DNA of 36,253 nucleotides, taken from an uncultured bacterium. GTDB taxonomy: Bacteria; Patescibacteriota; Patescibacteriia; UBA1558; GWA2-36-10. Location of the stretch: contig CAINYB010000016.1 of assembly GCA_903855135.1 (NCBI GenBank), positions 1 through 36,253 on the forward strand, read 5' to 3'. A program made the translations under genes and the position numbers. Below, piece after piece: positions 9,452 through 21,150 of this stretch. The first letter of the stretch is position 1, and each line of letters begins with the position of its first letter. The notes beneath the pieces are model-generated. The model was not told the DNA's origin, ran no database searches, and was given only the letters and a program-made list of their open reading frames with translations.

Positions 9452-9526
9452 TGGCTCCGGGAGAGGGATTCGAACCCACGACCAATTGATTAACAGTCAA
9501 CTGCTCTACCACTGAGCTATCCCGGA
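9452..9526 (-). tRNA. tRNA-Asn(GTT), CCA encoded
   Basis: Minus strand TCCGGGATAGCTCAGTGGTAGAGCAGTTGACTGTTAATCAATTGGTCGTGGGTTCGAATCCCTCTCCCGGAGCCA. Confidence 0.96.
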
Positions 9527-9527
9527 T

Positions 9528-9603
9528 TGGTAGCGGGAGTCGGACTCGAACCGACGGCCTCCAGGTTATGGGCCTGGCGAGCTGCCAACTGCTCTATCCC
9601 GCG
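9528..9603 (-). tRNA. Initiator tRNA-fMet(CAT) with C33, CCA encoded
   Basis: Minus strand CGCGGGATAGAGCAGTTGGCAGCTCGCCAGGCCCATAACCTGGAGGCCGTCGGTTCGAGTCCGACTCCCGCTACCA; unpaired C1xU72 and A11:U24 are initiator features. Confidence 0.92.
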
Positions 9604-9658
9604 ATGTTTAAACACAGTATAAACAATCTATGCCACTTTGACAAGCTTTTTAGATGTC

Positions 9659-9682
9659 TGCCCTTCAACTATGTTCAGGGCA
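9659..9682. repeat. Imperfect palindrome TGCCCTTCAACTATGTTCAGGGCA
   Basis: TGCCCT/AGGGCA stem in the tRNA spacer; reverse complement (CCCTGAAC..GTTGAAGGG) resembles the CCCCGAGCGAAGTCGAGGGG element at 18926. Confidence 0.5.
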
Positions 9683-9713
9683 TTCTCCTCGCTATCACAG
9701 CTTTGGTCGAAGA

Positions 9714-9741
9714 CCATGAGCGAGCAAAGCGAGTCGAATGG
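9714..9741. repeat. Element CCATGAGCGAGCAAAGCGAGTCGAATGG abutting tRNA-Ala
   Basis: GAGCGA..AAGCGAGTCGAATGG resembles the GAGCGAAGTCGAGGGG element; overlaps the tRNA-Ala CCA end. Confidence 0.5.
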
Positions 9742-9815
9742 TGGACCATAAGGGACTTGAACCCTTGACCTCTTCCATGCCATGGAAGCGCTCTAGCCAA
9801 CTGAGCTAATGGCCC
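9739..9815 (-). tRNA. tRNA-Ala(GGC), CCA encoded
   Basis: Minus strand GGGCCATTAGCTCAGTTGGCTAGAGCGCTTCCATGGCATGGAAGAGGTCAAGGGTTCAAGTCCCTTATGGTCCACCA. Confidence 0.96.
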
Positions 9816-9824
9816 GTAAAAAAA

Positions 9825-9901
9825 TGGTAGCAGGGGTGGGGATCGAACCCACGACCTCAGGCTTATGAGTCCTACGCTCTAACCAACTGAGCTACCCTGC
9901 C
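9825..9901 (-). tRNA. tRNA with CAT anticodon: elongator Met or Ile2 (lysidine type)
   Basis: Minus strand GGCAGGGTAGCTCAGTTGGTTAGAGCGTAGGACTCATAAGCCTGAGGTCGTGGGTTCGATCCCCACCCCTGCTACCA; identity between Met and Ile2 not resolvable by eye. Confidence 0.93.
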
Positions 9902-9902
9902 T

Positions 9903-9987
9903 TGGTACCGAAGGTGGGACTCGAACCCACATGACTTGCGTCACACGATTTTGAGTCGTGCGTGTCTACCAATTTCACCACTTCGGC
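9903..9987 (-). tRNA. tRNA-Leu(CAA), CCA encoded
   Basis: Minus strand GCCGAAGTGGTGAAATTGGTAGACACGCACGACTCAAAATCGTGTGACGCAAGTCATGTGGGTTCGAGTCCCACCTTCGGTACCA; class II variable arm, anticodon CAA. Confidence 0.96.
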
Positions 9988-16543: not shown

Positions 16544-17971
16544 TTATTTTCTCAACTGATTTCTGATTTTTTCTTTAGCCGCGGTGGTGATGACGATATT
16601 GAGCCAATCAGGATTTGGCTTTTTTCTATTTTTGTCTATCAAAATCTCTACCACATCACCAGACTTTAGAGCGTGATTGAGAGAGACCATTTGTTCATTT
16701 ATTTTTGCGCCCACACATTTGTTGCCGATATCAGTGTGGATATGAAAAGCAAAGTCGAGGGGCGTAGCATTTTCTGGGAGCTCGATCACATCGCCTTTGG
16801 GAGTAAAGACAAAGATGCGATTTAAAAATAAATCATTTTTAACGTGTTTGATAAACTCGACATTATCAGTAATGCTTTTTTGGATATCTAACAAATGTTT
16901 GATCCAAGTCGGTGGATTTTTTTTATTATCAATATTTTTTAGCTCTTTGTAGCGACTATGAGCGGCGATACCAAACTCCGCTTCTTCATCCATCGCTTGG
17001 CTACGGATTTGGATCTCGGCGATTTTACCAAACTCGGTAAAAACCGAAGTGTGGAGTGAGCGATAACCATTTGGTTTTGGTTGGGCGATATAGTCTTTGA
17101 CGCGGCCTTTCAATGGCGTCCAACGTTTGTGGATGATGCCTAAGACGCTATAGCAATCGATCACATCAGGGACGATGATACGTAAAGCAATCAAGTCATA
17201 GACTTTATTTAAATCTTTGCCTTTATGTAAAAGCTTTTGGTAAAGACTAAACAAACTTTTTACTCGTCCTTTGATTTGTAAATAATGAATATTATTTTTG
17301 ACTAAATCTTTTTGGGCCAAGTGTTGGATTTTGGCGATATATTTTGTTTCGGTTTTCAAGCGATCTTTGACGAGATTTGAGACCCAGAGATATTCACTGG
17401 GATAGACGTAGGGGAAAGCTAGATCTTCTAAACGAGTTTTGATTTCAAACATGCCTAAGCGATTGGCAATCGGGGCATAAATTTCTAAAGTCTCTTGAGC
17501 GATACGCAAACGTTTTTCTTCTCGCACGCCCTCTAGAGTCTGCATGTTGTGCAGACGATCAGCTAGTTTGATGATGATGACACGTAAGTCTTTGGACATC
17601 GCCAAAAACATTTTGCGTAAATTTTCCGCGTATCTTTCTAGACCACGATATTTTAAAGTACCGAGTTTAGTGACACCGGCTACTAGCTCGGCCACTTCTT
17701 TGCCAAAATTATTTTTGACATCCTCGAGACTAAAATCAGTGTCTTCTGGCACGTCGTGCAATAAGCCAGCCGTGATCGAAGGAATGTCCATTTTCATCTC
17801 CGCTAGATTGTAGGCTGTAGCTAAAGCATGATAAATATAGTCTTCGCCAGTACGTCTTTTTTGGCCACGGTGTGCTTCAGAGGCAAAATGAAAAGCTTTG
17901 ATGACAGTATTAATGTCTTCATCTTGGTATTCAGTGATCAATATTTTCTTTAAGTCTTCAAAAGTAATCAT
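16544..17971 (-). CDS. rel: RelA/SpoT-family (p)ppGpp synthetase/hydrolase
   Basis: HD domain (GLLHDVPEDTDFSLED), synthetase domain (VYDLIALRIIVPDVIDCYSVLGIIHKRWTPLKGRVKDYIAQPKPNGYRSLHT), TGS domain (VFTPKGDVIELPENATPLDFAFHIHTDIGNKCVGAKIN). Confidence 0.96.
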   Translation of the reverse strand: MITFEDLKKILITEYQDEDINTVIKAFHFASEAHRGQKRRTGEDYIYHALATAYNLAEMKMDIPSITAGLLHDVPEDTDFSLEDVKNNFGKEVAELVAGVTKLGTLKYRGLERYAENLRKMFLAMSKDLRVIIIKLADRLHNMQTLEGVREEKRLRIAQETLEIYAPIANRLGMFEIKTRLEDLAFPYVYPSEYLWVSNLVKDRLKTETKYIAKIQHLAQKDLVKNNIHYLQIKGRVKSLFSLYQKLLHKGKDLNKVYDLIALRIIVPDVIDCYSVLGIIHKRWTPLKGRVKDYIAQPKPNGYRSLHTSVFTEFGKIAEIQIRSQAMDEEAEFGIAAHSRYKELKNIDNKKNPPTWIKHLLDIQKSITDNVEFIKHVKNDLFLNRIFVFTPKGDVIELPENATPLDFAFHIHTDIGNKCVGAKINEQMVSLNHALKSGDVVEILIDKNRKKPNPDWLNIVITTAAKEKIRNQLRK

Positions 17972-18064: not shown

Positions 18065-18093
18065 TTGACTTTTTGGCTATTTTGTGTTAATAT
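18065..18093 (+). promoter_or_regulatory. Sigma70-type promoter of the small-ORF cassette
   Basis: TTGACT (18065-18070), 17-bp spacer, TAATAT (18088-18093). Confidence 0.7.
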
Positions 18094-18140
18094 CTTAGCT
18101 TGAGTGTACATTGTCAACATTTCAACGAAAGGAAGAACGC

Positions 18141-18272
18141 ATGAATCTTTGTCCTTTGGAATTGCAAGTGTTAGTGATGCAGATGCATCTTTCTCGAATT
18201 CTGTTGCGTTTGAACCTGTTAATTCTCGAGCAAACAAAAGGAGAGGCAGATGCCCAAAAAGAAGCTGCTTGA
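18141..18272 (+). CDS. Hypothetical small protein, cassette ORF1 (43 aa)
   Basis: MNLCPLELQVLVMQMHLSRILLRLNLLILEQTKGEADAQKEAA; preceded by AAGGAAG; overlaps ORF2 start by 23 nt. Below the ORF-track size cut-off. Confidence 0.5.
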   Translation: MNLCPLELQVLVMQMHLSRILLRLNLLILEQTKGEADAQKEAA

Positions 18273-18603
18273 CCCTGTTTACCACAGAGACGTCTTGCCC
18301 GTGAAGATTATCTGTTGGTTGCGGCTAGAAATAGATCGCATCTACAGAAACCATGAAATAGTGAGCTTTAATGGCGTTCCTGGTTATTTGGCTAGCACAA
18401 CTGATAGCAATGACTGCTGTTTATTCGCATCCTCGGCCGATGGTCGAAGGTATTGCGTGCCGATCGCGACGATTTTTGTGGTCGAGCACGCTTCTGACCT
18501 CTTTGTGAAAGAGGCGTTGGCCGGAGAAGATTTTCAATCACTCTTGATCGACATCGACTCATTTGTCGAAGAAGTCAAGAACATTCTCAGGAGACTCCAA
18601 TGA
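18250..18603 (+). CDS. Hypothetical protein, cassette ORF2 (117 aa)
   Basis: Preceded by AAAGGAGAGGCAG (strong SD); C/G-ending codons unlike neighbours; no family recognised. Confidence 0.65.
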   Translation: MPKKKLLDPVYHRDVLPVKIICWLRLEIDRIYRNHEIVSFNGVPGYLASTTDSNDCCLFASSADGRRYCVPIATIFVVEHASDLFVKEALAGEDFQSLLIDIDSFVEEVKNILRRLQ

Positions 18604-18812
18604 CCGCGGTCGACGAAGACAAGAGGCCGGTGACTCATTACCAGTACAAGAGCATGATCGTGTGGTCCAGGTGTGAGCCTAATGCACACGGTTTGTTGCA
18701 CTGTCATCAAGTGCCTGCCCCAAGGAAGCCTAGCACTCGCCCTGTGCGTAATGAAATGCCAGAGAATCTCTTTGCCGGTTACCTTTCATTGCGTCAGCTG
18801 AAGAAGCTGTAG
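18600..18812 (+). CDS. Hypothetical protein, cassette ORF3 (70 aa)
   Basis: ATGA overlap with ORF2 stop, SD AGGAGA upstream; no family recognised. Confidence 0.55.
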   Translation: MTAVDEDKRPVTHYQYKSMIVWSRCEPNAHGLLHCHQVPAPRKPSTRPVRNEMPENLFAGYLSLRQLKKL

Positions 18813-18831
18813 CACTTCGTTGAAGCCCCCT

Positions 18832-18883
18832 AAGAGCTACGAACTTGCCCCCATCCGGGACATTTACGTAGCTCTTTTTCTTT
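18832..18883 (+). terminator. Terminator of the small-ORF cassette
   Basis: Perfect 10-bp stem AAGAGCTACG / CGTAGCTCTT (18832-18841 / 18867-18876), T-rich tail TTTTTCTTTT. Confidence 0.8.
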
Positions 18884-18945: not shown

Positions 18946-21150
18946 TTATTCTTCCGCGTCTTTAGTGAATTCACAAGACTCACATTTTATTTTATCTTTA
19001 GCAGCAAATAATAATAGCTGTTGGCATTGGGGACAGAGCTCGCCAGTTGGTTTGGTCCAAACAGCGTGTTCGCACTTTGGATATTGATCACAGCTATAAA
19101 AAGCTTTACCGCGTTTACTTTTTTTCTCCACCATTTGTCCTTTTTTACATTTGGGACAGATGACGCCAAGTTCTTTTTGAATAGCTTTAGTACTTTTACA
19201 CTCAGGATAGTTGGAGCAGGCTAAAAATTTGCCAAAGCGTCCATGTTTTAAAATCATGGCACTGCTGCATTTTTCACATTTTTCTTCTACAGTAGTTTCT
19301 TCTTCTATCTTACCATCATCACCTAGTGGCTTAGTGTTTTTACATTCAGGATAATTAGTACAGGCTAAAAATTTTCCAAAGCGACCAAGTTTGATCACCA
19401 TTGGGTTACCGCATTTGTCACAGACTTCATCTGTAGCTGTTTCGGTTATTTCTTTTTTGTCTAAATCTTGATCTTTTTCTTTTAAGTTTTTCATAAAAGG
19501 TTCATAAAAAGCTTTAATAATAGGTTGCCAATCTTTTTTGCCATCAGCAATTTTATCTAAATCATTTTCCATCTCGGCAGTAAAATTGTAGTCAACGATA
19601 TCGGCAAAATTTTCTACTAAAAGTTTATTGACTACAAAAGCTATTTCAGTCGGCGCTAAACGTTTTTCTATTTTTTCCACATACTTACGCAAGACCAAAG
19701 TAGCAATGGTTGGTGCATAAGTAGAAGGACGGCCAATGCCGAGTTTTTCCATATCTTTGACTAAGCCGGCTTCAGAATATCTCGCTGGTGGGGTAGTAAA
19801 GTGTTGGATATTTTCTAAACTTTTTAGCTCCACAATATCATTGATTTCTAAGGCTGGTAACTCTTCATCATCAGAACTATTTTGATAAATGATTTGCCAG
19901 CCAGCGAAAATAGTGACGGAGCCGACGCTGCGTAAAGTCCATTTAGTTTTTTCAGCTTTTATTTCGACGCTGGTATTTTCAGTTTTAGCGTCAGTCATTT
20001 GTGAAGCGATAGCTCTTTGCCAAATCAGTTGGTAAAGCTTGAATTGTTTGCTATCTAAAAAGTCTTTGATTTTCTCTGGAGCAAGTCCGGCTTCAGTAGG
20101 ACGGATAGCTTCGTGAGCTTCTTGAGCAAGTTTTGCTTTTTTCTTAAAAACACGGCCACCATTTTCAGCATATTTTTCACCTAAGTTTTGTTTGATGTAT
20201 GTGATTGCTTCAGCGACAAAATCTTCTGACAAATTTTTAGAGTCAGTACGCATGTAAGTGATCAAACCAGTGCTACCATTTTCACCGATGTCGATACCTT
20301 CATAAAGCTGTTGAGCGAGCATCATGGTTTGTTTGGCAGAGTAGCCAAAGCGACGATTAACTTCTTGTTGTAAAGTAGAGGTAGTAAAAGGGGCTGGTGG
20401 AGTTTTTAAGTTTTCTTTAGATTCAATATTTATAATCTTGAGAGAACTTGCTTTTATTTCTTCAACAGCGATTTTAGCTACTGCTTCATCAAGATCAAAT
20501 TTTTGTAAAGTCTGATCATCTTTTTTCCACAAACTGATTTTAAAATCATTGTGATCTTTGTGTGCCACACCTTCGACGCTCCAATATTCTTGGCTGACAA
20601 AATTATTACGCTCTTGTTCACGCTCAACTATCAGACGCAAGGCGACTGATTGCACGCGACCAGCAGACAAACCTTTGGCCACTTTTTTCCATAAAAGCGG
20701 AGAAAGCTTATAGCCCACTAAACGATCTAAAACACGACGAGCTTGTTGGGCGTCGACTAAATTTAGGTCTAGTTCTCGTGGATGCTCGATAGCTTTTAAA
20801 ATTGCTTTTTTAGTGATTTCATGAAAAGCGATTCTTTTAGCTTTATCTTTGGGAGTTTTTAAGAGATGTAATAAATGCCAGCTGATGGCCTCACCTTCGC
20901 GGTCCTCATCAGTCGCAAAGTAGACCAGGTTAGATTTTTTAGCTAAATCTTGGAGCTCTTTGACGCGTTTTTTAGCTTTAGCTGGTACGACATAAGTTGG
21001 CTCAAAATTATGCTCGACATCAACGCCAAGTTTACTGCTAGGTAAGTCACGGACATGACCAAAACTAGACTCGACTTTGTAGTCTTTGCCTAAAAAACCT
21101 TTGATGGTTTTGGCCTTGGTAGGTGACTCGACGATGATTAAATCTTGCAT
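18946..21150 (-). CDS. topA: DNA topoisomerase I
   Basis: LIIVESPTKAKTIKGFLGKDYKV; TDEDREGEAISWH; GLITYMRTDS; C-terminal CxxC zinc ribbons (CDKCGNPMVIKLGRFGKFLACTNYPEC). Confidence 0.98.
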   Translation of the reverse strand: MQDLIIVESPTKAKTIKGFLGKDYKVESSFGHVRDLPSSKLGVDVEHNFEPTYVVPAKAKKRVKELQDLAKKSNLVYFATDEDREGEAISWHLLHLLKTPKDKAKRIAFHEITKKAILKAIEHPRELDLNLVDAQQARRVLDRLVGYKLSPLLWKKVAKGLSAGRVQSVALRLIVEREQERNNFVSQEYWSVEGVAHKDHNDFKISLWKKDDQTLQKFDLDEAVAKIAVEEIKASSLKIINIESKENLKTPPAPFTTSTLQQEVNRRFGYSAKQTMMLAQQLYEGIDIGENGSTGLITYMRTDSKNLSEDFVAEAITYIKQNLGEKYAENGGRVFKKKAKLAQEAHEAIRPTEAGLAPEKIKDFLDSKQFKLYQLIWQRAIASQMTDAKTENTSVEIKAEKTKWTLRSVGSVTIFAGWQIIYQNSSDDEELPALEINDIVELKSLENIQHFTTPPARYSEAGLVKDMEKLGIGRPSTYAPTIATLVLRKYVEKIEKRLAPTEIAFVVNKLLVENFADIVDYNFTAEMENDLDKIADGKKDWQPIIKAFYEPFMKNLKEKDQDLDKKEITETATDEVCDKCGNPMVIKLGRFGKFLACTNYPECKNTKPLGDDGKIEEETTVEEKCEKCSSAMILKHGRFGKFLACSNYPECKSTKAIQKELGVICPKCKKGQMVEKKSKRGKAFYSCDQYPKCEHAVWTKPTGELCPQCQQLLLFAAKDKIKCESCEFTKDAEE

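Follow-up and report, generated by a model that had tools for sequence, protein, structure and literature searches.

Phage morons are compact genes that lie between conserved genes, have their own promoter and terminator, and deviate in base composition. The cassette described here, located between rel and topA in the genome of an uncultured patescibacterium (G000; 810 kb, 28 contigs), is likewise compact, carries its own promoter and terminator, deviates in composition and has conserved neighbours. It differs from morons by its chromosomal position with rel and topA as flanks and by the lack of a phage context, and it has no phage relatives in the phage collections that were searched. With type II toxin-antitoxin modules it shares small, coupled ORFs and a patchy distribution, but it matches none of their families and its putative partners are not inherited together.

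A closer parallel is found in the minimal mobile elements (MMEs) of Neisseria. In the definition quoted in PMC3082526, and traced there to Saunders and Snyder 2002 and Snyder 2007, a pair of conserved genes encloses cassettes that vary from genome to genome and whose incorporation is attributed to homologous recombination. By this definition, the rel/topA locus resembles the MMEs in its conserved pair of flanking genes, its differing cassettes of whole genes and the absence of mobility genes. Homologous recombination is attributed to MMEs in that source, while we infer it here from the contrast between flanks and cassette and from an excess of dS at another site. The rel/topA locus also differs from the MMEs so described in that it varies between species and genera instead of strains, in that a promoter and leader are conserved within it, and in that its contents are GC-rich genes for orphan small proteins. 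The exchange locus may best be read as a variant of this known kind of locus. On balance, we consider it probable that rel and topA enclose a hypervariable exchange slot, and that the cassette, as one of its occupants, is moved by recombination with DNA of related cells and gives rise to orphan small binding proteins.

Anatomy of the cassette

The window, i.e., the whole stretch of 36,253 nt that was analysed, is contig C16 of G000. The conserved edges of the slot are rel (RelA/SpoT family, 16544..17971) and topA (DNA topoisomerase I, 18946..21150); both are encoded on the minus strand, and the cassette is on the plus strand. A preliminary description of this DNA had named these two neighbours correctly, and its promoter, three overlapping ORFs with ribosome binding sites and terminator were all found in place.

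The promoter (18065..18093) has the structure TTGACT-17-TAATAT with an extended -10 TG (TTTTGTGTTAATAT). As a string it is not rare (4 occurrences found versus 1.5 expected), but its -10 region is kept at the same site in G001, the congener of G000, and in G002, and TTTTGTGTTAATAT is invariant across these three aligned genomes. It is followed by an unstructured 5′ leader (18094..18140; fold z +0.96) consisting of TTGTCAACATTTCAACGA and the SD AAAGGAAG. Over 50 bp (18079-18128) this region is 84% identical to G001, and the match stops at the SD. ORF1 (18141..18272) encodes 43 aa and belongs to no family. ORF2 (18250..18603), preceded by the SD AAAGGAGAG, encodes an orphan protein of 117 aa and overlaps ORF1 by 23 nt. 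ORF3 (18600..18812; 70 aa, also an orphan) has the SD AGGAGA and is coupled to ORF2 through ATGA. The unit ends with an intrinsic terminator (18832..18876), whose outer stem of 10 bp (AAGAGCTACG/CGTAGCTCTT) is followed by a T-rich tail; for the stem-loop a dG of -21.6 was calculated (z -4.8), and none of 200 shuffled sequences was as stable.

The three small ORFs are the entire content of the cassette, which includes no integrase or transposase. Flanking direct repeats, which would mark a transposon, were not found. The extended -10 promoter, the unstructured leader, an SD for each ORF, the coupling of the ORFs, the strong terminator and the orientation opposite to both neighbours suggest that the cassette is a real orphan unit built for independent expression. 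This anatomy supports the earlier view of a self-contained small-protein module with its own expression signals.

Base composition, coding capacity and predicted products

The composition of the cassette had been called foreign. Measured against 412 ORFs of G000 that encode 150 aa or more (mean GC3 0.279, sd 0.059), this applies to ORF2 (GC3 0.556, z 4.1) and ORF3 (0.629, z 4.6), but not to ORF1, which is not unusual (0.395, z 1.3). Translational selection was rejected as a cause of high GC3, since the genes for EF-Tu, HU and ribosomal proteins show values of 0.24–0.33, with 0.24 for both EF-Tu and L2, and thus highly expressed genes do not have the bias. The only other marked GC peak in the window is a cluster of five tRNA genes (9455-9987, minus strand). 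Elsewhere in the genome, L071:1137-2435 (minus strand) has a GC3 of 0.68 and codes for 432 aa, with a signal-like N-terminus; the copy in G001 is 79% identical with a GC3 of 0.69, so that this gene is GC-rich yet stably inherited.

In an AT-rich genome, a GC-rich island may be an RNA gene, and together with the lack of protein family matches this could point to a structured non-coding RNA or to spurious ORFs in a GC-rich intergenic stretch. A homologue of ORF2 in G002 (39–40% identity) speaks against this. Differences between the two sequences amount to 0.48/0.37/0.70 at the three codon positions, with saturated synonymous sites, which is the pattern of a constrained protein. ORF2 is thus a genuine gene on which purifying selection acts, one of the checks on which the small-protein reading had been made to depend. 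Considering also the SD of each ORF, the conserved ORF overlap and the absence of any Rfam match in the cassette region, we regard a non-coding origin as extremely unlikely.

None of the products could be assigned to a known family in Pfam, PHROGs, NCBIfam, PADLOC, PDB sequences or phage and plasmid records; the single marginal match, in PHROGs, was to a stretch of a long tail-fibre family (E 4e-4). The initial impression of unrecognised products is thereby borne out. Profile searches of the 381 genomes of the class, GTDB contigs, IMG/VR, phages and plasmids for further relatives of ORF2 and ORF3 returned only the G002 protein for ORF2 and the G001 protein for ORF3, and an ORF2 profile search of the order (36 genomes) added nothing beyond G002. 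A description of such cassettes in Patescibacteria was not found in the part of the literature that was covered.

An AlphaFold2 (AF2) model of ORF2 was built on two sequences (mean pLDDT 57, pTM 0.46). It shows four strands with pLDDT of about 68–81 (about 73–81 over residues 31–70) and C-terminal helices, and the predicted barrel core comprises about residues 27–78. With this core, Foldseek retrieved the KorB C-terminal domain, Tudor, Hfq and NusG KOW at E-values of 3e-3 or worse. The core superposes on such SH3-like barrels with an rmsd of about 2–3 Å over 46–60 alignment columns. The predicted core thus resembles these barrels, but ORF2 has no sequence similarity to them and carries the additional C-terminal helices, and its low-depth model shows four strands compared to the five or six of SH3-like small barrels. 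The usual ligands of such barrels are peptides or nucleic acids. The model suggests that ORF2 probably encodes a soluble small beta-barrel protein of the SH3-like type, which would bind a peptide or a nucleic acid. A prediction for ORF3, made on its G001 homologue, was too uncertain to be used (pLDDT 48).

These data also bear on the view that the cassette is an anti-phage defence or counter-defence module, possibly phage-derived and moron-like. Such a module would fit with small orphan ORFs that have a promoter and a terminator of their own, with the foreign composition and with the fast turnover (see below), and by fold the predicted ORF2 core also matches many small uncharacterised phage proteins in Foldseek. 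However, SH3-like folds are too widespread to identify such a module, PADLOC gave no match and the cassette holds no known defence protein. PHROGs returned only the marginal tail-fibre stretch, and neither the 50,697 phage records nor IMG/VR contained a relative. The phage or plasmid origin proposed earlier lacks direct support, and no phage or plasmid record matches. A defence or counter-defence role of the cassette is possible, but we consider a module of this origin and kind unlikely.

The rel/topA site in related genomes

In nearly all members of the family that were examined, and beyond the family, rel adjoins topA. In most family members the gap between them is 39–157 bp long and empty. 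Four genomes from three genera, and only these, contain a GC-rich cassette at this site; they are the four closest by topA (amino acid identity 100% for G000, 95% for G001, 88% for G002 and 74% for G009), and two of the three occupied relatives of G000 belong to other genera. Their gaps measure 519–974 bp with a GC content of 0.44–0.49 and contain small ORFs behind a promoter. At the same site G012 (L039:2320-2600) has an unrelated AT-rich gene for a 74-aa zinc-ribbon-like protein, with an SD and a terminator-like repeat, and the gaps of G019 and G027 are likewise wide and AT-rich. The sets of genes differ among G000, G001, G002, G009 and G012, and most other genomes are empty.

A recent single acquisition of the slot was rejected because of its occupation across genera. 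The slot was already filled when the genera separated, which contradicts the recent acquisition proposed for the locus. The GC-richness of the slot outlasts saturated synonymous divergence, so foreign composition here does not equal recent arrival: one and the same site has stayed GC-rich in different genera with GC-poor core genes.

The contents of the slot do not follow the flanks. Between G000 and G001 the flanking DNA is 91.6% and 88.6% identical, and within the cassette only the 50 bp of the leader can be aligned. The slot of G001 lacks ORF2 and keeps a homologue of ORF3 (33% identity, BLAST E 2e-4, 0 of 1000 shuffles by SW), while topA is 95% identical there; no other significant homologue of ORF3 was found. 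The slot of G002 keeps ORF2 and has no recognisable ORF3. Its ORF1 counterpart (46 aa) is similar in size and position, with borderline homology (SW, 32 of 1000 shuffles), and the 23-nt overlap recurs (L004 380-520 and 498-782). The third ORF of G002 resembles ORF2 of G009 (2 of 1000 shuffles). Two further similarities noticed by eye were not significant, namely that of G002 ORF3 to ORF3 of the window (826 of 1000 shuffles) and that of G009 ORF1 to ORF2 of the window (682 of 1000). With ORF2 shared only with G002, ORF3 only with G001, and a match between G002 and G009, the gene content of the slot is mosaic. In G001 (L036:960-1040) an apparent deletion fuses the -10 region of the cassette to about codon 8 of rel, and the usual start of rel and the -35 box are gone; this may be an assembly fault.

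The mosaic content weighs on the idea of a toxin-antitoxin module with ORF2 as toxin and ORF1 or ORF3 as antitoxin, one of the options named in the preliminary description. Small overlapping and coupled ORFs, an own promoter and a patchy distribution would be expected for it. The partners are not kept together, however: G001 has the ORF3 homologue without ORF2, and G002 has ORF2 without a recognisable ORF3. No toxin-antitoxin family matches either, and we consider this reading very unlikely.

Similar loci in the genome and possible exchange

The cassette is not unique. In 605 kb of the 810 kb of G000, the sample to which all locus counts refer, 32 GC-rich small ORFs with ribosome binding sites were found. 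After removal of RNA-gene artefacts they represent about twenty dispersed loci, many with an own promoter and terminator. GC3 values and visual inspection served to delimit the GC-rich sets, and tRNA/rRNA artefacts were removed by hand after the results were known. G001 has a comparable number of such loci. The suggested search for like cassettes was thus positive for the kind of locus, but an identical cassette was not found in two places. Another cassette in G000 (L074:14205-14533) shares GGGGTTGACTTTTTGGCTA with the start of the promoter in the window and has a similar layout of overlapping ORFs.

At sites syntenic between G000 and G001 the flanking DNA is about 84–91% identical. Promoter and leader often align up to the SD or the start codon, and the coding sequences do not. 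This applies to L071/L098 (leader of 75 bp at 88%), L085/L096 (111 bp at 88%) and L131/L099 (69 bp at 90%), all with coding sequences lacking significant similarity. Thirteen GC-rich small ORFs have syntenic flanks, about 10 of them protein-like. Of these protein-like ORFs one is kept in the congener, compared to 12 of 17 ordinary small ORFs (Fisher p 0.004); adding a separately scored conserved 59-aa cassette changes this to 2 of 11 (p 0.018), the samples being small in both cases. The sole diverged pair that could be measured, L129/L091, has 51% identity and a dS of 1.63, versus a genome median of 0.74. Such an excess is more readily explained by replacement from a divergent source than by selection acting only on the protein. 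Elsewhere, one and the same leader is followed by unrelated proteins that differ in length. Four GC-rich coding sequences that are unrelated to each other, two of them in G000 and one each in G001 and G002, lie behind a promoter and a 5′ leader with an 8-bp hairpin. The hairpin covaries, both sides being changed in 2 of its pairs. These leaders are located at L085:6310-6410, L074:12418-12525 (minus strand), L096:5675-5776 (minus strand) and L151:1500-1584, and a comparison with Rfam gave no convincing match for them.

The main rival explanation is a vertically inherited, fast-evolving operon, whose genes would diverge in place in an arms race while selection holds their GC content. Very fast divergence of this kind could also leave coding sequences that no longer align. 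In agreement with it, pairs at the same site are homologous yet divergent (40% for ORF2, 33% for ORF3, 51% for L129/L091), and G000 and G002 have the order of ORF1 and ORF2 and their 23-nt overlap in common. It does not account well for the dissimilar third ORFs of G000 and G002, the match of G002 ORF3 to G009 ORF2, the absence of ORF2 from the congener, or the unrelated proteins of different length behind one leader elsewhere, and the coding sequences have diverged far more than the adjacent leader DNA (roughly 10–16%). We regard divergence in place as a rather unlikely cause, even if it is the strongest of the competing ones.

If the cassette instead occupies an exchange slot, a small transcription unit would have been gained between topA and rel before G000/G001, G002 and G009 diverged into separate genera. 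From then on, promoter and leader would largely have been retained, as they are in G000, G001 and G002. The small GC-rich genes downstream of the leader would have been lost, rearranged or exchanged for others, and homologous recombination within the conserved flanks is the most likely mechanism. The incoming DNA would probably have been taken up from related cells by natural transformation. ComEC, to which the check for competence was confined, is present in the genome, and for Patescibacteria competence has been put forward as a way of taking up DNA (PMC12455944). Counting against exchange, an occupied GC-rich slot is seen in four genomes only, and no replacement was caught in the act.

The strong turnover of genes favours a role in conflict or interaction, with phage, host cell or competitor, over housekeeping. 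Patescibacteria live as epibionts, for the most part uncultured, and their genomes are very small. As a tentative extension, which we hold possible at best, dispersed slots with conserved promoter and leader and swapped GC-rich orphan coding sequences might occur throughout the family, about one per 30 kb, and supply a reduced genome with a renewable repertoire of small membrane and soluble proteins. If this is true, some twenty or more slots per genome that exchange orphan proteins would be a concrete source of many unannotated genes of Patescibacteria, and the slots would provide a small pool of candidates for interaction with the host or conflict with phages.
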